Shown here piece by piece: positions 4,503 to 13,764 of a stretch of 64,000 nucleotides of DNA. The stretch spans positions 314,326 to 378,325 of the forward strand of contig NZ_CP118575.1 of assembly GCF_028898845.1 (NCBI RefSeq), written 5' to 3'. This DNA is from Streptomyces sp. WZ-12. GTDB taxonomy: Bacteria > Actinomycetota > Actinomycetes > Streptomycetales > Streptomycetaceae. The notes under the pieces were generated by a model. That model was not told the origin of the DNA and did not search any database. It saw only the letters and a program-made list of their open reading frames with translations. Both the position numbers and the translations under genes were made by a program. How positions within the stretch are numbered: the first letter of the stretch is position 1; each line of letters opens with the position of its first letter.

Positions 4503-5782
4503 GGTCGCCTCCGGCCGAACAGCACGTCCAGGCTCTCGGGCCGGTAGTGCAGAGTCGGCTCCGAGGGCTCCGCCGGTTCCTCGGCCTGGCGACGGTGGTG
4601 AGCCAGGACGCTTTCGATGACGTCCTCGGTGGTGGGCGTGACGTACCGCTGAGTGGTGGATAGACGTGCATGTCCGAGTACCCATTGGACGTCCGTGATC
4701 GGCATCAGCGGGTCACGGGCGAGCCGGTAGGCCGCCGTGTGCCGTAGGTCGTGCAGCGACCAATCCGACCCCAGCGTGCTGTTCGCGCGGACGAACATCG
4801 CTCGCGCGGCATGGTAGTTGAGAGCACGAAACGGCCGTCGCAGCGTCCACCACAGCGGGTCGTCGGGGCCGGTGGGCACCAGTTCGTGCATCTGCTGCTG
4901 GTAGAGCCGCAGCCAGACGAACGCGTCCGGCGAAGCCGGCAGCTGCTGCAGGGCGCGCGAGCCCTTGCGTACCACCGTGACCAACTGGCGCCCCGGGTCC
5001 GTGCCGGAGCACAGCACCCCGAGCAGCTCGGAAGCCCTGGCCCCGGTGGAGATCCAGAAGGCGACCATGGCCCGGTCACGGTCCGAGGACAGCCGGGCGA
5101 ACAGCTCGTTGAACACCGCATCGGGGATCTGACGCGGGATCCGTTGCGGCTGCCGTGGTCGGAACAGTCCTGCCCGTTGCGGGCGCCATGGCTCCATCGG
5201 GTTGTGGTGCGCGTTCACTCGCGGAGTCCTGGCCAGCGGGAACGGGTTGACCAGCGGACCGGTCCCGGCCTCCAGATGGTGGGCGTAGAAGCTGCGGAGC
5301 ACCGTCTCGCTGTGCGCGACCGTCGACGCCGCGTACGTCGTCCCGACCGGCCGCTTCCCGGTGATCGGATTCGTGCCCCGGGCGACCGGCCGAACAGCCG
5401 ACGACGAGGTCGATGCCGAACTCCGGTGCGGCCGAGGAGGCTTGGCCGTGATCTGAATCCACCGGGAGAAGTCGCGGGCCTCGATCCGGGTCGCCTCGTT
5501 CCACGGCACCTCGACCGCCCACAAGAAGCGGAACCAGCGCAGCAGGTCCATGCCGTACGAACGCTGAGTCGTCGCAGGCCGCCCGGCCGCCTGCAGATCC
5601 TTCATGTACGCAGCCGCCGCCCCCACCATCGCCCCGGCAGGATCCACCAGACGATACGGCTCCCACGGGTCACCACTCTCCACGAGCGCACCCACCCGGG
5701 ACACCACCAGTGAACCCAAGTCCCTTGAGACATCCTCACGTTCGAGCATGTCAGGGGACGGTAGCCAGCCCGCCTCCGCCAT
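4499..5782 (-). CDS. tyrosine recombinase, TnpA-like
   Basis: 427 residues. The full tyrosine recombinase catalytic set is visible: R249 in STGARASELLG, H344 and R347 in HDLRHT, H371 in LGHARLST and Y380 in TQRY. The N-terminal 200 residues form the core-binding and arm-binding region. The gene ends in a 4-base overlap with the larger recombinase, so the two are translationally coupled. No third small gene (TnpC-like) is present in this cassette. Confidence 0.9.
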   Translation of the reverse strand: MAEAGWLPSPDMLEREDVSRDLGSLVVSRVGALVESGDPWEPYRLVDPAGAMVGAAAAYMKDLQAAGRPATTQRSYGMDLLRWFRFLWAVEVPWNEATRIEARDFSRWIQITAKPPRPHRSSASTSSSAVRPVARGTNPITGKRPVGTTYAASTVAHSETVLRSFYAHHLEAGTGPLVNPFPLARTPRVNAHHNPMEPWRPQRAGLFRPRQPQRIPRQIPDAVFNELFARLSSDRDRAMVAFWISTGARASELLGVLCSGTDPGRQLVTVVRKGSRALQQLPASPDAFVWLRLYQQQMHELVPTGPDDPLWWTLRRPFRALNYHAARAMFVRANSTLGSDWSLHDLRHTAAYRLARDPLMPITDVQWVLGHARLSTTQRYVTPTTEDVIESVLAHHRRQAEEPAEPSEPTLHYRPESLDVLFGRRRP

Positions 5783-5808
5783 GTCCGAAGAACAAGAAGA
5801 GAACCTCC

Positions 5809-5818
5809 CGTAGTTCAG
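5809..5818. repeat. terminal inverted repeat of recombinase cassette, right
   Basis: CGTAGTTCAG, the exact reverse complement of 1966-1975, just inside the junction with the resumed istA frame. Confidence 0.6.
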
Positions 5819-5826
5819 TCAACACG

Positions 5827-6966
5827 CCAGAGCCGGGCCGATGGCTCCAGTTCGACTGGGGCGAGGGCCCGCGGATCAGGGGCCGGCGGACCTGGTTGTT
5901 CTGCGCGTGGCTGTCCTGGTCGCGGTTCCGGGTCGTGATCCCGGTCTGGGACTGCACGTTGGGCACGCTGGTGGCATGCCTGGACACCACGTTGCGGCGG
6001 ATCGGCGGGGCACCGACCTACGTCCTGACGGACAACGCGAAGACGGTGACCGTCGAGCACATCGCCGGGATCCCGGTGCGGCACCCGCAGATGGTCGCCG
6101 CGGGCCGGCATTACGGCTGCCAGGTGGTCAGTTGCGTTCCCTACGACCCCGAGTCGAAGGGCGGCGCGGAGGCCACGGTCCGCATCGCGAAGGCCGACCT
6201 GGTGCCCACCAGCGCGAACCTGCTGGCCGCCTACGACACCTTCGCCGAGCTCGCCGATGCCTGCCTGACCTGGTGCGATGCAGTGAACTCCCGCCGCCAC
6301 CGGGCGACCGGACAGATACCCGCCGACCGCCTCGATATCGAACGCACCACCCTGCACATACTGCCCATCGAGCCGCTCGCGCTCGCGCTGGGCGAGGAAC
6401 GACTGGTCGGCTCGGACCGCACCATCAGCTTCAACTCGGTGCGTTACTCGACCCCGCCGGGCTATACGGGCGCGAGGGTGTGGTGCCGGGTGGTCGGCGA
6501 GGAACTTTCCATCACCGCCCGCACCAACTCCGGTGACCTGTCGGAGATTTGGCGCCACCAGCTCTCCACTCCGGGTGCTCCACAGATCATCGACGAGCAC
6601 TACCCCGACCATCCCGATGGCCGCAGTGTTCACCAGCCGCGGCTGTAGCCCCGCTCGGAAGCGGAGATCGCGTTCGTGGGCATCGGCTCCGGCGCGGGCC
6701 GCTGGCTCAAGGAAGCCGGACCCGCCGGAGCGGTCCGCATCCGCTCCAAGATGGCCCGCGCGGTCGAGCTGGCCACCGTCCTGGGCAACGACAGAGTCGA
6801 CCAGGCCCTCGGCCTGGCGGCCACGGCCGGACGCTTCGCCGACGGCGACCTCCTCTCGATCCTGGGACACATCGCGGATAGCAAGCCCGCCGGCGAGGTC
6901 GTCCGCGCGGACGAGGCCCACTCCGTCCAGAACGGAACCATCGGCTGGCAGGCACTCGGCCGCTGA
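5827..6966 (+). pseudogene. istA: IS21-family IstA, C-terminal fragment with stop codon
   Basis: This is the continuation of the istA interrupted at 1960. It starts at GRWLQFDWGEGP, carries the rve/DDE core (VLTDNAKTV, then PYDPESKGGAEA with the catalytic glutamate) and the downstream beta-rich region. An in-frame TAG at 6646-6648 splits the C-terminal 106 residues, which continue in the same frame to 6966 (GRWLKEAG, RFADGDLLSIL). The gene therefore carries three lesions: loss of the 5' end to IS3-A, the cassette insertion, and the stop. Confidence 0.87.
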
Positions 6967-7026
6967 CCCAACAGCCCATCTCTCAACACGTTTTGACGAT
7001 TCCTTCCCCAAGAGAACGGCACCTCC

Positions 7027-7800
7027 ATGAGTTTTCCCAGCGCGCCCGCCCTCCCCGAGGAACTCGACAAGCTCATGCGCCGCATGCGGCTGCCCCATAT
7101 GCGCAAGGCGGCCCCCGATGTCCTGGCCACCGCGCGGGCTCAACGCTGGGACCCCGCCGAGGTGTTGCGGCTGCTGATAGCCGAAGAGGTCACCGGCCGC
7201 GACGCGGCCACCCGCCGCCTGCGGCGGTCCTCGGCGAACTTCCCCACCGGCAAGACCCTGGGCTCCTGGCGGGCCGAGGACTCCACCATCCCCGAGCCCA
7301 CCCAGAACTCCCTGATCACCCTGGAATGGATCGGCCGCGCCGAGAACTTGGTGATCGCCGGCCCGAGCGGCACAGGGAAAAGTCACTTCACCGAGGGACT
7401 CGCCCAAGCCGCGATCGAGAAGGACATGAGGGTGTCCTGGTTCACCCTGGAGACCCTCGCTGCCGCGATCGGGAAGTCGAAGGTCGATGGGTCCACGGCA
7501 CGGACCGTCGCCCGGATCTGCCGGGCCGATTTGATCGTCATTGATGACATTGGCCTGCTGCCGGTCGGCGAGGACGCCGCCGAGGCGTTCTACCGGATCA
7601 TCGACGCCGCCTACGAGCGTCGCTCCATCGCGGTGACCAGCAACATCCACCCCTCGGGCTTCGACACGATCATGCCCAAGACCCTCGCAGGGGCGAGCAC
7701 CGACCGTCTCATGCACCACGCTCACCTCGTGACCACCTCCGGCGACTCACATCGCCTCGCCGAGGCCCTCGCCGGGAAGGGAGTGGTCCCCTTGAACTGA
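7027..7800 (+). CDS. istB: IS21-family IstB ATPase
   Basis: 257 residues from ATG 7027. It has an AAA+ P-loop (GPSGTGKSH, about residue 117), a Walker B (LIVIDDIG) and the IstB C-terminal motif TSNIHPSGFD. IstB is the target-selecting helper ATPase of IS21 transposition. It is intact although its partner istA upstream is broken; it could act only with an istA supplied elsewhere. Confidence 0.92.
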   Translation: MSFPSAPALPEELDKLMRRMRLPHMRKAAPDVLATARAQRWDPAEVLRLLIAEEVTGRDAATRRLRRSSANFPTGKTLGSWRAEDSTIPEPTQNSLITLEWIGRAENLVIAGPSGTGKSHFTEGLAQAAIEKDMRVSWFTLETLAAAIGKSKVDGSTARTVARICRADLIVIDDIGLLPVGEDAAEAFYRIIDAAYERRSIAVTSNIHPSGFDTIMPKTLAGASTDRLMHHAHLVTTSGDSHRLAEALAGKGVVPLN

Positions 7801-8811: not shown

Positions 8812-8842
8812 CCGGGAGTGATTACGCCGTAATCACTCCCGG
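8812..8842. promoter_or_regulatory. parS-like palindrome site 1 (31 bp)
   Basis: A perfect 31-bp palindrome with one central base; the core GTGATTACGCCGTAATCAC is at 8818-8836. It lies about 100 bp past the 3' end of parB. The core recurs at 9170, 9218, 11307 and 12366, all within the parAB island, so it is a strong candidate centromere (parS) or ParB/ParA operator. Confidence 0.75.
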
Positions 8843-8934
8843 GGCCGATTCTGACGGCACAAGGCCATACGCATACGTATCAGGCCCCGCTCCCCCACCA
8901 GAGGCAGGGTGCGGGGACTGACAGCCATGTCGAG

Positions 8935-10008
8935 TTAAGCCGGGGATACGGTCTGCAGCTTCTGCGAGAGCTGCTGGATCTGCTCCGTGCCCATGTGGCG
9001 GCAGATCAGGTCCGCCATGGCGTCGACGTCCTGCCACGGCAGGCCCGAAACTGTATCGGCTGTCGCCGGCGTTGACGTCGGCTTCGGTGTTACGGGCGAA
9101 GCCGGGTCCCCGCCACGGTCGCTGCTGGGCGTTGTTGCTCGACGGCCTTGCTGGGGGGCGATCTGCTCGGTGATTACGGCGTTATCACCTGAGGCGCTCT
9201 CGGGCCTGGAGGCTGGAGTGATTACGCCGTAAACACTCGGCACCTGGGGCGGCGGGGCATCGCTGGAGGGCTTGCGCTTGCGTTCCTTGGCGTGGGAAGC
9301 CTCAGCGGCCCGCTTGTCTGCCTCAGCTCGTTGCTGTTGCGGCGGCAGCTTGCCCAGTCCTCGGACGTGTTCGACCTTCCGGTCGCCTGCTTCAAGGTCG
9401 GCCTGGAGGGCCGGGTCAAGGTGGAGGAGGGAGAGCCGCTGGGAGATGAACCCTTGGCTTATACCCAGACGTTGGGCGGCCTTGCGTTGCGAGCCGTAGA
9501 ACGTGACGAGCTTCTCCAGCGCGTTGGCTTCTTCGAGCTCGATCATGTTCTCGCGATGCACGTTGGCCACGAAGGCTGCTTCCAGCAGCTTCTCGTCCGA
9601 CGTGGCGAAGGCGTCATCGACGGTGTACTTGATCTCCGTCAGGCCGGCCTCGCCAGCAGCCGCGAAGCGTCGGTGCCCATCGACGACGACGTACTGCGCC
9701 CCGTCCTTCAGCTTGCCGGCTTGACCGGGCCGTTCGGCGAGGTAGGCGTCCACCGTGACGAGGCTGATCGCATTGACCAGGCCGACCTCAAGAATCGACT
9801 GCGCGAGGTCGGAGACGTCGCCGACCGTCTCACGCGGGTTGTCGGGGTTCTCACTGATCTGAGTCAGGGGGAGCCTCGCGGCCTTGGGTGCCGGCGCGCT
9901 TGTCGGTGCTTCTGTTGCCGCGGCGATGGCGGCACGGCGGGCGCTGACGGCTGGGGCGGCGTGGCTGAAGGAGGCGGAGGCGCCGAGCTTGGCGGCCTTG
10001 CTGCTCAT
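8935..10008 (-). CDS. parB: ParB-family partition protein
   Basis: 357 residues. The order is that of a ParB/Spo0J protein: the ENPDNPRE box at residues 53-60, the nuclease-like CTP-binding region with DGHRR at 110-114, the second arginine motif HRENM at 151-155, a helix-turn-helix at about 174-195 (KAAQRLGISQGFISQRL), then a low-complexity linker and a C-terminal dimerisation segment. It would bind parS and load onto the plasmid. Its start overlaps the stop of parA by four bases, so the pair is an operon transcribed leftward. Two copies of the local 19-bp palindrome lie inside its linker-coding region, so the protein reads VYGVITP and DNAVITE there. Confidence 0.9.
   Translation of the reverse strand: MSSKAAKLGASASFSHAAPAVSARRAAIAAATEAPTSAPAPKAARLPLTQISENPDNPRETVGDVSDLAQSILEVGLVNAISLVTVDAYLAERPGQAGKLKDGAQYVVVDGHRRFAAAGEAGLTEIKYTVDDAFATSDEKLLEAAFVANVHRENMIELEEANALEKLVTFYGSQRKAAQRLGISQGFISQRLSLLHLDPALQADLEAGDRKVEHVRGLGKLPPQQQRAEADKRAAEASHAKERKRKPSSDAPPPQVPSVYGVITPASRPESASGDNAVITEQIAPQQGRRATTPSSDRGGDPASPVTPKPTSTPATADTVSGLPWQDVDAMADLICRHMGTEQIQQLSQKLQTVSPA
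9170..9188. promoter_or_regulatory. parS-like palindrome site 2, inside parB
   Basis: GTGATTACGGCGTTATCAC, one mismatch from a perfect palindrome of the repeated core. It sits within the parB coding region, in the non-conserved linker. Confidence 0.65.
9218..9236. promoter_or_regulatory. parS-like palindrome site 3, inside parB
   Basis: GTGATTACGCCGTAAACAC, one mismatch from the core. It starts 48 bp from the start of site 2, also in the linker-coding part of parB. Confidence 0.65.
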
Positions 10009-11228
10009 GCGATCTCCCGGGCCAGGGCGCGGATGTTGGCGGCTTGTTCGCTGTTGGAAGCGTAGGCGAGGAGGGGTGTCTTGGTGCGGACGGCTTCGCG
10101 TTGTTCGCGTCGGTCGGGGATGACGGCGACGACGCGGGGGTCCCTTATGGCCTTCCAGGATGCGAGGGAGCTGGTGGCGATGTAGCCGCGGCGGGCGTCG
10201 TAAAGGTTGACGATGAGGCCGAGGTAGTCGAGTTCGATGTTCATGTCGGCGCGCATGTCCTCGATTTGGGAGACAAGGAGGCCGTAGGCGTCTGCGCTGC
10301 TGTCTTCGGCTTGGACGACGATGCCGACGCCGGACTGTCCGGGCTGTTCGCCGTCGCGACGGCGTCCGTAGTAGACGGCGGCGTCCATGCTGAGGCCGAG
10401 GCTGGGCGGGCAGTCGACGATGATGACGTCGTAGTCGCCTTCGATGGGGGAGAGGGCTCGTTCGAGGGCGGCTTCGCGGACTCGGACGCTGGAGAGTTTC
10501 ACGTCCAGGAGGAAGGCGTCTTGGCTTGCCGGCAGGAGGTCGAGGCGGTCGCCGAACTGGTCGCCGCTGACTCCGAGGATGAGGTCGCGGATGTCTCCGC
10601 GGTCCTTGTCGGCGGCCATGTGCTTGGAGAGCGTGTCGCCCTTCATGTCGAGGGGCTCGTGGCCGAGTTGCTTGGTGAGGTGGCCTTGCGGGTCGAAGTC
10701 CACCAGGAGCACGCGTATACCGTGGCCCGGCAGTTGTTCAAGGTCCAGTTCCGTGCCGGTCTCGGTCATCTGCTTGGAGGCGCGGACGGGGAAGAGGGCG
10801 TGGGGGTCCTCGGCGTAGGCCTGGGCCATGCCGGCTGCCGTGGCGGTCTTGCCGACGCCGCCCTTCTGGTTGCAGATGATCTTCCGCTTGGGAATGGTCG
10901 GGCGCTCAACGGCCGGAGCGGGGTTGGAGTCCAACCACAGTTGCACGGATTGCGCCAGACCTTGGATTCCGGATACGCCACGTGCGGTGGCGTCGGTGCG
11001 GAAGTCTTCCCACATGCCTTCCGGCAGCCAGGTGGAGAAGGACTCTGCGCCTGCGGTGTCGATGAGGGAGAGGTTGGAGCCGAGGCTGCGCCAGGCGGTG
11101 ATGCCTTCGGTGACCGCGTCTTGGAGGGCGATGCCTCGCTGGGCGACGCGGATTTTGAGGGCTTGCCATAGTGTGGCGGGGAGTTTAGATACGACCTTCT
11201 CGCGGTCGCTTTGCGGACTGCTCGTCAT
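10005..11228 (-). CDS. parA: ParA-family ATPase with N-terminal RHH-like segments
   Basis: 407 residues from ATG 11228; the frame is open 13 codons further upstream. The deviant Walker A KGGVGKTA lies at about residues 122-129, Walker A' at VDFDPQG and Walker B at IIVDCPPS. The first 100 residues contain two tandem strand-helix-helix segments (VVSKLPATLWQALKIRV and FSTWLPEGMWEDFRTDA) that look like ribbon-helix-helix DNA-binding motifs. In most autoregulating ParA proteins the N-terminal module is a helix-turn-helix instead. It would drive plasmid partition with ParB and probably repress its own operon through the upstream palindrome at 11307. Confidence 0.9.
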   Translation of the reverse strand: MTSSPQSDREKVVSKLPATLWQALKIRVAQRGIALQDAVTEGITAWRSLGSNLSLIDTAGAESFSTWLPEGMWEDFRTDATARGVSGIQGLAQSVQLWLDSNPAPAVERPTIPKRKIICNQKGGVGKTATAAGMAQAYAEDPHALFPVRASKQMTETGTELDLEQLPGHGIRVLLVDFDPQGHLTKQLGHEPLDMKGDTLSKHMAADKDRGDIRDLILGVSGDQFGDRLDLLPASQDAFLLDVKLSSVRVREAALERALSPIEGDYDVIIVDCPPSLGLSMDAAVYYGRRRDGEQPGQSGVGIVVQAEDSSADAYGLLVSQIEDMRADMNIELDYLGLIVNLYDARRGYIATSSLASWKAIRDPRVVAVIPDRREQREAVRTKTPLLAYASNSEQAANIRALAREIA

Positions 11229-11240
11229 AGAAGGAACCTT

Positions 11241-11279
11241 ACTAACGCGAGCGATCATTTCCAACACCAGGGCGTTAGT
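11241..11279. promoter_or_regulatory. inverted repeat in parA promoter region
   Basis: ACTAACGC at 11241-11248 and GCGTTAGT at 11272-11279 are exact inverted copies lying 13-51 bp upstream of the parA start. Each could be half of an operator bound by the N-terminal domain of ParA. The promoter hexamers are not clear. Confidence 0.45.
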
Positions 11280-11306
11280 GTCTACTCGAAGTAGCGTAGG
11301 GAATGG

Positions 11307-11325
11307 GTGATTACGCCGTAATCAC
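11307..11325. promoter_or_regulatory. parS-like palindrome site 4, upstream of parA
   Basis: A perfect copy of the core, GTGATTACGCCGTAATCAC, with one further matching base pair on each side. It lies 79 bp upstream of parA, where it could act both as parS and as an operator. Confidence 0.72.
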
Positions 11326-11470
11326 CATCCAACCTCCTGCACTGGGACGCTTCCTGACGCACCATCCGCTGACCCGCCGCAACGAAGATCGAGTGTCCTC
11401 ACCGATTGCCACGGTGTGCGTCAGCCCGTTGCGGTCAAACTCAGGAGTCAAGTGGACGACGAGGTGATGG
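11326..11470. other. short intergenic region, no gene assigned
   Basis: A minus-strand frame covers this stretch but it runs through the palindrome at 11307 and has no ribosome-binding site. No gene is called. Confidence 0.4.
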
Positions 11471-11872
11471 TCACGGTGACGGATCGGCTGTGTAGCCCCT
11501 GGCCAGGTAGGCCACCTCCACGGACGTGCCGACCAGGCCAACTCCCTTAAGGACAATAGCCATCAGCCGCGCCTCATTCAGCGAGAGGTGCTGCATCTCG
11601 CGCAGGGCTCGCAGCACGGGAACGAAGCTCGCGTCTTGGTGCGCAAGCCGAAGCCGAGCGGCCCCGTGCTGCGTCAGCGGAGCCTGCCTGACCTCTTCGG
11701 GAGCCGAGCCGGTAGTCGTCTCGCACCATGCGTTCGGGCAGCCTCGACACTGCCCTTCGACGCGCCAGCGCAACCGACCCTGGTCGACGAACTGACCGAC
11801 GTCGCGGGCAAGTTCACCTCCACAGCTCTCACACTGCGATGTAAGCGTCGCTCCCTGAGCAGCAGTGATCAT
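11471..11872 (-). CDS. hypothetical zinc-ribbon protein
   Basis: 133 residues from ATG 11872, chosen because a strong GGGGAG ribosome-binding site precedes it. The N-terminal half has two CxxC-type pairs (CESCGGE and CRGCPNAWC) that suggest a zinc ribbon. The C-terminal half (LREMQHLSLNEARLMAIVL) resembles the helical segment of ribosomal protein L7/L12-like folds. It lies upstream of parA in the same orientation, inside the partition island. Function unknown. Confidence 0.65.
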   Translation of the reverse strand: MITAAQGATLTSQCESCGGELARDVGQFVDQGRLRWRVEGQCRGCPNAWCETTTGSAPEEVRQAPLTQHGAARLRLAHQDASFVPVLRALREMQHLSLNEARLMAIVLKGVGLVGTSVEVAYLARGYTADPSP

Positions 11873-11967
11873 TAGTCTCCCCTGCGGCGTCGATCCGCCC
11901 GATCCTGCCGCACGCAGCGAGATCCGGCGACAGGGTTGCGCGGCGGCACGGACCCTCATCAGGAGCG

Positions 11968-12070
11968 TCATGCCTCGACTGATGTTGATGGTGCGGGCTC
12001 GTAGCACCGTTGGTCGCGCAGTGGGGCCCAGATGGCGTTCACGCGACGGCGAGTCAGGTCGAGGGCAACC
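11968..12070 (-). pseudogene. possible transposase 3' remnant
   Basis: A minus-strand frame ending in TGA at 11968 reads LDLTRRRVNAIWAPLRD, which looks like the C-terminal tail of an actinobacterial transposase. Upstream the frame degenerates. The family is not assigned and the call is weak. Confidence 0.28.
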
Positions 12071-12348
12071 GGGGTGTGGCGCCTAGGGAAGTCGCCGCCT
12101 CATCGAAAGCAGTCGAGCCTGGCTTCGGACACGGCAGCACGAGATAGGAGGAGCCTCCTTAGCCGGATCTGCCTCGGCCCCCGGCGTATTGCTCACAGAA
12201 CTCCACCGGCTCCTCGAAGTTGGTTGCTGTCAACGCCTGTGCTCATCGAGACAGCAGGGCCGATGCTGTAGCGATGACGCGTGTTCTCGTCCAGCCGCTC
12301 AGCCGACTCCATCAAGTCGAACGTCGTGGACAGGGCCGCAACACGGAA
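12071..12348. other. no gene recognised before the 53-bp palindrome
   Basis: About 280 bases with only short frames of unnatural composition. Confidence 0.4.
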
Positions 12349-12401
12349 CCTCTGCGGGGTCCGGGGTGATTACGGCGTAATCACCCCGGACCCCGCAGAG
12401 G
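12349..12401. promoter_or_regulatory. 53-bp perfect palindrome with parS-like core (site 5)
   Basis: Two 26-base arms, exactly complementary, around one central G at 12375. The centre is the repeated core GTGATTACGGCGTAATCAC (12366-12384). It would extrude as a cruciform or fold as a very stable hairpin, and could be the main parS site or a replication/termination structure. It lies 35 bp from the end of IS3-A copy 2. Confidence 0.75.
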
Positions 12402-12596: not shown

Positions 12597-13764
12597 CTGA
12601 CCTCGGCTCGTCAGGGTGATGTTGGGTCATCGAGGGTGAGGCCGGTTCCGGCGATGAAGCCGTCGAGGGTGTCGGGCCGGTACTGGAGGCGCTTGAGCCG
12701 GTTGCGGACGAGTGCCTCGAGGCGGTCCAGGGCCACGACGGCGAGGTTGGCCAGGCTGCGTTTGACGTGTGCCCACACCCACTCGACCGGGTTCAGATCG
12801 GGTGAGTAGGCCGGCAGCAGGAATACCGTCAGCCATTCCCGTTCGTCGATCAACTTCCGCATCCTGCGGGAGACATGCGTGTTCAGCCGGTCCCACACCA
12901 GGACGATCGGTGCCTTGACGAGCTGATGGGCGCCGTCGATCAGCGCGATGAAGTCGCGCTCGCTCATGCTGCGGCGCTTACCCTTGCCCGCCGGGTGGGC
13001 GATCAGCCGGTGGCACAGGCGGGTCCGCGAGCCGGGCCGCATGGCGACCAGCCCGGCCACCGACAGGCGTCCCGATCGTCGTCCGCTGACCGTCACAACC
13101 GGCGTCACACCGCGCCGGCCCCAGGTGCGTCCCCTGGGCGGCTTGCGGGTGAACCCGGCTTCGTCCTCGAAGCAGAGGTAGCCCCCGCAGGCCGCCCGGG
13201 CTCTTTTACCTCCGCCCAGGTCGCCTCCTTCCACACCTTCACGGCCTGCTCGTCGCGCTCGGCCACCCGCCGCGCGGGAACCTGCGGGGAGAAGCCGAGC
13301 CGGTGCATCAACCGGGTGGCACCCGAGACGCTGTAGGAGACGTGGAACTTCCTGCCGATCAGCGTGACCACTCGCGCCGCGGTCCACACCTGGTCCTCCA
13401 CCCACCCGTGCGCGGCCGGACCCTGGTCGAGATACACGGCGAGTTTCGCCAGGCAGCGTGGCGACAGCCGGCACCGGCCGCCACCGGGCCCTCGTGAACC
13501 AAGCGCATCGGCGCCGCCCTGACGCCACAGCTGCTGCCACTGATAGGCCGACTTCACGCTCACCCGCAGCCGCCGTGCGACCTCCGGCGGCTTGATCTTC
13601 TGCTCGAACAGCTCGACCGCCTGCATCCGTACAGCCTCGCGACGCTGACGTCCCGCAGCGGTAAGCCCGCCCCCATCTGCATATCTCACACACCACGAGA
13701 TACAGACAACGCGCCCGCCTCACCAGCGACTTCGCCAAAGATCACCCTGACGAGCCGAAGTCAG
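12597..13764 (-). mobile_element. IS630-family element, complete
   Basis: 1168 bp, flanked by a TA duplication (12595-12596 and 13765-13766), the hallmark of IS630/Tc1 insertion. The terminal inverted repeats are 24 bp with one mismatch; the left end begins CTGACCTCGGCTCGTCAGGG and the right end inverted begins CTGACTTCGGCTCGTCAGGG. It carries one transposase in two frames. Confidence 0.93.
12611..13689 (-). CDS. IS630-family transposase (two frames, -1 shift)
   Basis: The upstream frame begins at 13689 and supplies the N-terminal helix-turn-helix region (EVARRLRVSVKSAYQWQQ) and the segment up to WAEVKE. The downstream frame, -1 relative to it, supplies the DDE domain: FEDEAGF, WDRLNTH and YSPDLNPVEW. 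The frames meet at about 13210 over GGTAAAAGAG, a plausible A4G slippage site. Programmed frameshifting is known in IS630 elements, so this may be functional rather than broken. Confidence 0.85.

Follow-up and report, generated by a model that had tools for sequence, protein, structure and literature searches.

What reads the five copies of a 19-base-pair (bp) palindrome that lie in and around the parA and parB genes of Streptomyces sp. WZ-12? We addressed this question in a stretch of 64,000 nucleotides, called the window throughout, which forms the right end of contig C2 (C2:314326-378325; the contig is 378,325 bp long). C2 is probably a Streptomyces plasmid; no telomere was identified at its ends. 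Comparison of sequences leads us to predict, with high confidence, that the five palindromes are the parS centromere of a type I helix-turn-helix (HTH)-type ParABS partition system on C2. A sequence-only reading of the window had proposed a plasmid-specific centromere read by the adjacent ParB, and this appears to be the best explanation, because all five sites lie at a single parAB locus on one contig, the class of palindrome follows ParB residues in relatives chosen independently of the motif, and the placement of sites inside parB is usual for the family. The palindromes and the two genes are as follows.

8812..8842, no strand: predicted parS site 1, a perfect 19-bp core (8818-8836) in a 31-bp perfect palindrome, 98 bp beyond the parB stop codon
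9170..9188, no strand: predicted parS site 2, within parB between the HTH and the C-terminus, coding DNAVITE; one mismatch, a GATTACG/GATAACG half hybrid
9218..9236, no strand: predicted parS site 3, within parB, coding VYGVITP; one mismatch, 48 bp from site 2
11307..11325, no strand: predicted parS site 4, perfect, upstream of parA, 39 bp from its GTG start and 78 bp from its ATG start
12349..12401, no strand: predicted parS site 5, a perfect 19-bp core (12366-12384) in a 53-bp perfect palindrome
8935..10008, minus strand: parB, a 357-amino-acid HTH-type ParB with ParB_N and HTH_ParB domains; helix region GSQRKAAQRLGISQGFISQR
10005..11267, minus strand: parA, a ParA-type ATPase gene with a 4-bp overlap with parB

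Scanning the window for GTGATTACGSCGTAATCAC at up to three mismatches returned exactly five matches, at 8818, 9170, 9218, 11307 and 12366, with 0, 1, 1, 0 and 0 mismatches, respectively. This bears out the coordinates and counts of the sequence-only reading (three perfect copies and two with one mismatch), as well as its remark that the copies lie within 3.6 kb around parA and parB, with none noticed elsewhere in the window. A chance origin was considered and dropped, given 100 shuffles of the window (mean 0.00 matches) together with a scan of the organism's own genome (9,547,725 bases, 2 contigs), in which the same five sites were the only matches at up to three mismatches and the reversed pattern gave 0 matches. 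The motif search beyond the window therefore found no further copies in the 9.55-Mb genome at this threshold, and no frequent chromosomal copies. Sites 2 and 3 lie in the parB reading frame, 3' of the HTH domain (Pfam HTH_ParB, residues 154-235), and the frame confirms that they shape the peptides DNAVITE and VYGVITP, as had been claimed.

The chromosomal parS family was considered as the identity of the window sites and dropped, since the sequence differs from GTTTCACGTGAAAC, the chromosomal parS consensus; the earlier statement that the palindrome departs from the chromosomal Streptomyces form thus held. At up to one mismatch GTTTCACGTGAAAC had 54 matches in the own genome, all on contig C1 among the matches listed. 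HTH_ParB matched three proteins in this genome: a C1 protein that we assume is the chromosomal ParB, the window ParB, and another on C2. The chromosomal system shares with the window an HTH-type ParB and a palindromic parS, and the inner letters TTTCAC of the chromosomal consensus resemble, by eye, the TTTCACG class of some plasmid relatives. In contrast, its half-site is a different one, and the plasmid form has about three extra central bases (GNC) between the half-sites (by eye).

The two genes have the composition of a type I HTH-ParB ParABS system: a ParA-type ATPase gene adjoins parB, the ParB carries ParB_N and HTH_ParB, and repeated palindromes lie close to parAB. Both ParB domains exceed the Pfam cut-off, and TIGR00180 scored above its own; in ParA the AAA_31 and CbiA domains are above cut-off, and KGGVGKT is present (by eye). 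By sequence, the top-scoring solved relatives of the window ParB are Spo0J 1vz0 and ParB 6t1f. Its ParB_N box residues can be aligned and are changed, with GHRR in place of GERR. The parA start is probably the ATG at 11228, judging from where the start is annotated in L006, the pSGZL relative. Site 4, upstream of parA, may possibly also act as an autoregulatory operator for the parAB operon. Between the likely ATG and site 4, at 11241-11279, ACTAACGC and GCGTTAGT form an inverted repeat (by eye), itself a possible operator.

To place the palindromes within their family, we compared 30 Streptomyces plasmid parAB loci, hand-picked from ParB similarity lists without regard to the motif, 22 by similarity to the window ParB (L006-L008, L166-L184) and eight by similarity to the ParB of L049 (L185-L192). 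The window is not among them. Plasmid records matching the window ParB at E 1e-5 numbered 811, and the 30 loci were those used for the residue-base comparison. When the first 22 loci were scanned for any odd palindrome, all but L007 and L181 (20 loci) showed a leading family, with inner letters ending in ACG at 19 loci and in ACT at L175, and a few other short palindromes were also present. When the same build was sought with one asymmetric base tolerated, at least one palindrome turned up in 29 of the 30 loci, and the leading half-site was counted three times or more in 27; the count was lower in L181, with one palindrome, and in L190, with three singles. The half-site classes among relatives include GATTACG, GATAACG, TATTACG, TATCACG, TTTCACG, GCTAACG and GTTAACG. 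The window motif itself, at up to one mismatch, occurs in 31 of 392 genomes of the genus (own included), while the reversed control had 0 among the rows listed.

Of the first 22 loci, 20 have within parB one or more palindromes matching the class of their own locus (at most one mismatch), 44 sites in all, with L170 and L174 each having one at the stop codon; no such site lies inside parB of L008 or L184. The parB-internal sites of the window are therefore an ordinary layout of this family. At 14 of these 22 loci a class-matched palindrome also lies upstream of parA, no more than 600 bp away. The same recurrence bears on the idea that the palindromes are recombination or transposon end sites. 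Transposase and integrase genes do lie nearby, but sites occupy the parB reading frame and the region upstream of parA, and other plasmids carry class-matched sites at the same positions relative to these genes; we regard this explanation as extremely improbable.

We then asked which property of ParB the palindrome class follows. The residue after SQ was at first taken to set the class by itself, and this failed, since the SQGW loci L187, L189, L191 and L192 have no GATTACG site at up to one mismatch. Inspection of the palindromes at these four loci led us to see that the residue after GSQ tracks base 1 of the half-site. Over 29 loci, R or H after GSQ (17 loci) goes with G at base 1 in 17 of 17; T or N (11 loci) is never counted with G, nine being clear cases (all T) and two being ties; and the single locus with G after GSQ (L183) has G at base 1. 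The residue after SQ in turn tracks base 4: G goes with T in 10 of 10 loci, P with A in 10 of 10, S with C in five of five, and A with A in three of four. If these two positions set the letters, then the window ParB, with R after GSQ and G186 after SQ in GSQRKAAQRLGISQGFISQR, should go with GATTACG at bases 1 and 4, and this is what was found. The loci fetched later (L185-L191) fit the base-4 rule in 7/7 cases, as close kin sharing SQGW, and in a wider, partly motif-selected set all 31 of 31 labelled G proteins have T, a count that is circular for the motif-selected rows. A near-matched natural pair is formed by the window or L031 (G) and L006 (A), whose recognition helices are otherwise nearly identical. 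Together these counts suggest that two ParB residues predict which letters the parS sites carry.

In our own reading of the alignment, the residue after SQ falls on S174 of Caulobacter ParB, beside the published specificity residue R173. The portion of the ParB/Noc study considered here reports that a few residues of the HTH region set recognition of parS or of the Noc-binding site (NBS), at 173, 179, 184 and 201 in Caulobacter ParB (PMC7383237); its main text holds no mention of position 174. Passages of PMC8743542 concern chromosomal parS. Among the titles listed by literature searches, none describes a ParB/parS covariation code.

The same comparison bears on whether the palindromes are instead operators or terminators of another regulator, unrelated to partition. 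One site does lie upstream of parA, and two lie in long palindromes whose GC-rich outer arms could serve as terminators. However, the class of palindrome tracks the ParB helix over 29 loci, the parB-internal sites match the class of their own locus, and no named product besides ParA and ParB is common to all the annotated neighbourhoods listed (by eye only; L179 is unannotated). Another regulator thus seems to us very improbable, and a centromere read by ParB the better account of the palindromes.

A number of points nevertheless weigh against the centromere reading or its two-residue part. Binding of ParB to the five sites is an expectation drawn from its family, two of the five window sites are imperfect, and L192 has no palindrome of the same build. 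The base-1 ties are L191 (C, T) and L190 (T, C, G), the base-4 exception among the A loci is L172, with C, and in the wider set L044 has P after SQ yet T at base 4. Both rules were noticed on data that were then counted: the base-4 rule on the first 22 loci, which are part of the count, and the base-1 rule after all loci including L185-L192 were in hand. Fisher's test gives p ~5e-8 for each rule with relatedness ignored. Relatedness was considered on a ParB tree of 50 labelled rows, built with the helix columns excluded; 16 further rows that bore no label, including L141 and L181, were omitted from it. Of four supported independent pairs, three agreed with the code, none was opposite and one showed no difference (sign test p 0.25). 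Since the pairs number only four, this phylogeny-corrected test is underpowered, and after correction the two-residue code is not established. Finally, the likeness to SCP1 ParABS2 described below is drawn from repeat length and site position, not from the letters of parS.

The quick tree also bears on the history of the window's own sites. The window ParB falls in a supported group of 19 rows, of which 11 are of A class, five of C class and three of T class, and a separate group of 27 rows also reads GATTACG. The simplest reading of this tree is that GATTACG apparently re-evolved in the lineage of the window ParB. We defined a hybrid site as one GATTACG half joined to one GATAACG half. Such hybrids make up 12 of 26 sites across the window, L031 and L054 (one contig), L006, L007 and L141, with L008 (TATTACG class) set aside as having no countable site. 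They are absent from the 152 sites of 35 loci of the SQGW-type group. That set counts some contigs more than once, through duplicate stretches, and it takes in L044 (SQPW) and a few loci that were assigned by their sites or by parA because the stretch examined did not include the helix. In eight GATAACG-class loci, three of 31 sites are hybrids. In the window the imperfect site at 9170 is a hybrid and that at 9218 is not. Eight hybrids lie inside parB genes (one in the window, two in L031, one each in L007 and L167, two in L169 and one in L141); in seven of the eight the T half falls where the change leaves the amino acid unaltered (GTT to GTA), and in L141 it falls on the opposite side. Small as this count of eight is, it suggests that the parB-internal hybrids are lagging, protein-constrained sites. 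The lineage of the window was apparently caught while changing its centromere specificity.

A further site was seen in relatives over the codons for DYDVI, within the conserved ParA motif DYDVIIVDC, which often read GATTACGACGTAATC, a perfect 15-bp core. The corresponding feature of the window is:

10422..10436, no strand: the DYDVI codons of parA, two mismatches from the 15-bp core GATTACGNCGTAATC in the window and perfect in many relatives

Among 32 unique loci with other perfect sites, 24 have a perfect core over DYDVI, four have one mismatch and four (the window included) have two; among 12 loci without other perfect sites, one has a perfect core. Codon usage of these genes would give a perfect core in 0.5%. 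The 32 loci were partly recovered by motif search, and the figure of 24 is probably inflated, because such a search could recover a locus through the parA site itself. In ten SQGW loci obtained independently of the motif, the core is perfect in four, with one mismatch in one more; the perfect cases are three of five GATTACG-class loci versus one of five others. A first impression from motif-selected loci, that the parA-internal site is near universal, was accordingly given up, and a test of codon invariance within loci carrying the site was circular and not used. Among the titles listed by literature searches, none describes a parS inside parA, and a text search for GTGATTACG gave only unrelated titles among the matches listed.

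Taken jointly, these results allow a broader reading of Streptomyces plasmid ParBs, to which we give about even chances. In it, a readable two-residue code (after GSQ for base 1, after SQ for base 4) would link protein and site; copies of the centromere would be kept in the gene of their reader, so that site and specificity travel together; many GATTACG-class relatives would carry a rare-codon site over DYDVI of ParA; and the window lineage would have re-evolved GATTACG from GATAACG via hybrids, the parB-internal sites lagging because one half cannot change silently. The two-residue code, the apparent re-evolution with a hybrid left in parB, and the DYDVI site of relatives are less expected than the parB-internal sites.

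As to mechanism, a ParB dimer would read the 15-bp core GATTACG-N-CGTAATC with one HTH per half-site. After loading, by analogy with characterised relatives, ParB would close around the DNA with cytidine triphosphate (CTP) and slide, and the resulting partition complex would then be acted on or moved by the ParA ATPase; CTP-driven sliding and partition by the window ParABS are to be expected on the same analogy.

Plasmid systems with this arrangement have been described. In the sections considered here, the report on SCP1 of S. coelicolor A3(2) (PMC13245405) presents two ParABS systems, each with three parS sites; the ParB of one binds a 13-bp inverted repeat and that of the other a 19-bp one. 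The 19-bp repeat belongs to ParB2, for which a 15-bp core is sufficient, and each parB gene contains one parS, which the authors recoded for their complementation work. According to the same sections the two parS differ at a single nucleotide position, which is compatible with a place in the same palindrome family but is no proof of it, and Streptomyces plasmid ParBs have less conserved CTP pockets. On this partial view SCP1 ParABS2 and the window share an HTH-type ParB on a Streptomyces plasmid, a 19-bp inverted-repeat parS, several sites around parAB including a parB-internal one, and a second ParB on the replicon. They differ in that the window has five sites rather than three, with two inside parB rather than one, and in that no ParA was found for the second ParB of the window contig in the 20-kb stretch searched. 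For SCP2, the part of the ParATS report considered here (PMC12260392) places the inverted-repeat parS of ParT within the parT coding sequence, so that a parS inside a ParB-like gene is common to both; ParT, in contrast, is described there as CTP-independent with an 18-bp repeat, whereas the window has a 19-bp odd palindrome and a ParB with alignable ParB_N boxes. With parS inside parB or parT already published for SCP1 and SCP2, the window system is of a known kind.

The surroundings of the island raise one more question, namely whether the palindromes are parS sites of a relic, an island flanked by insertion sequences and no longer needed on a replicon with another ParB. The parAB island has IS21-type genes on one side (5710-7800) and a DDE_3 transposase gene on the other (12611-13738), the contig has a second ParB with palindromes of its own, two of the five sites carry a mismatch, and the window lacks the parA-internal site. 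Against this, parA and parB are intact open frames, three sites are perfect, and no relative of the window ParA was found in the 20-kb stretch holding the second ParB. We consider a relic unlikely and favor a centromere still read by its ParB.

On its own, the window contributes a further plasmid centromere that has copies within parB. The main weight lies on the comparison: the match of residue to base, the centromeres kept in the gene of their reader, and a lineage apparently mid-change in specificity. If the two-residue code is true, it would become possible to predict the parS of a Streptomyces plasmid ParB from the protein sequence, and to forecast partition incompatibility. The near-matched pair of the window or L031 with L006 would allow the evolution of centromere specificity to be tested directly.

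Several observations were made on other ParB systems. The second ParB of contig C2 lies outside the window (L163:4665-6380, G000:C2:24665-26380) in a stop-to-stop frame of 572 amino acids; near it are five perfect CGTTTCCANTGGAAACG palindromes, four of them inside its frame. Two further copies of CGTTTCCANTGGAAACG are on contig C1, and the pattern occurs in 4/101 genomes of the genus (own included). Two ParB genes lie about 3 kb apart in L131 (172-1377 and 4025-5458), with GATTGCG-type palindromes around one and GATTACG-type palindromes in the other. In genome G301 the window motif is clustered both on a 9.27-Mb contig (C1:7332820-7337025) and on a second contig (C2:136562-136715), which could give rise to partition incompatibility or mark an integrated plasmid. 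The viral collection IMG/VR has the exact motif on one contig only (103,804 bp; L160 and L161), in three places among the matches listed; this contig encodes a ParB with SQGW in its helix and is possibly a phage-plasmid. Outside Streptomyces, a Saccharomonospora piscinae contig (L100) carries three GATTACG palindromes near a ParB with SQGY.

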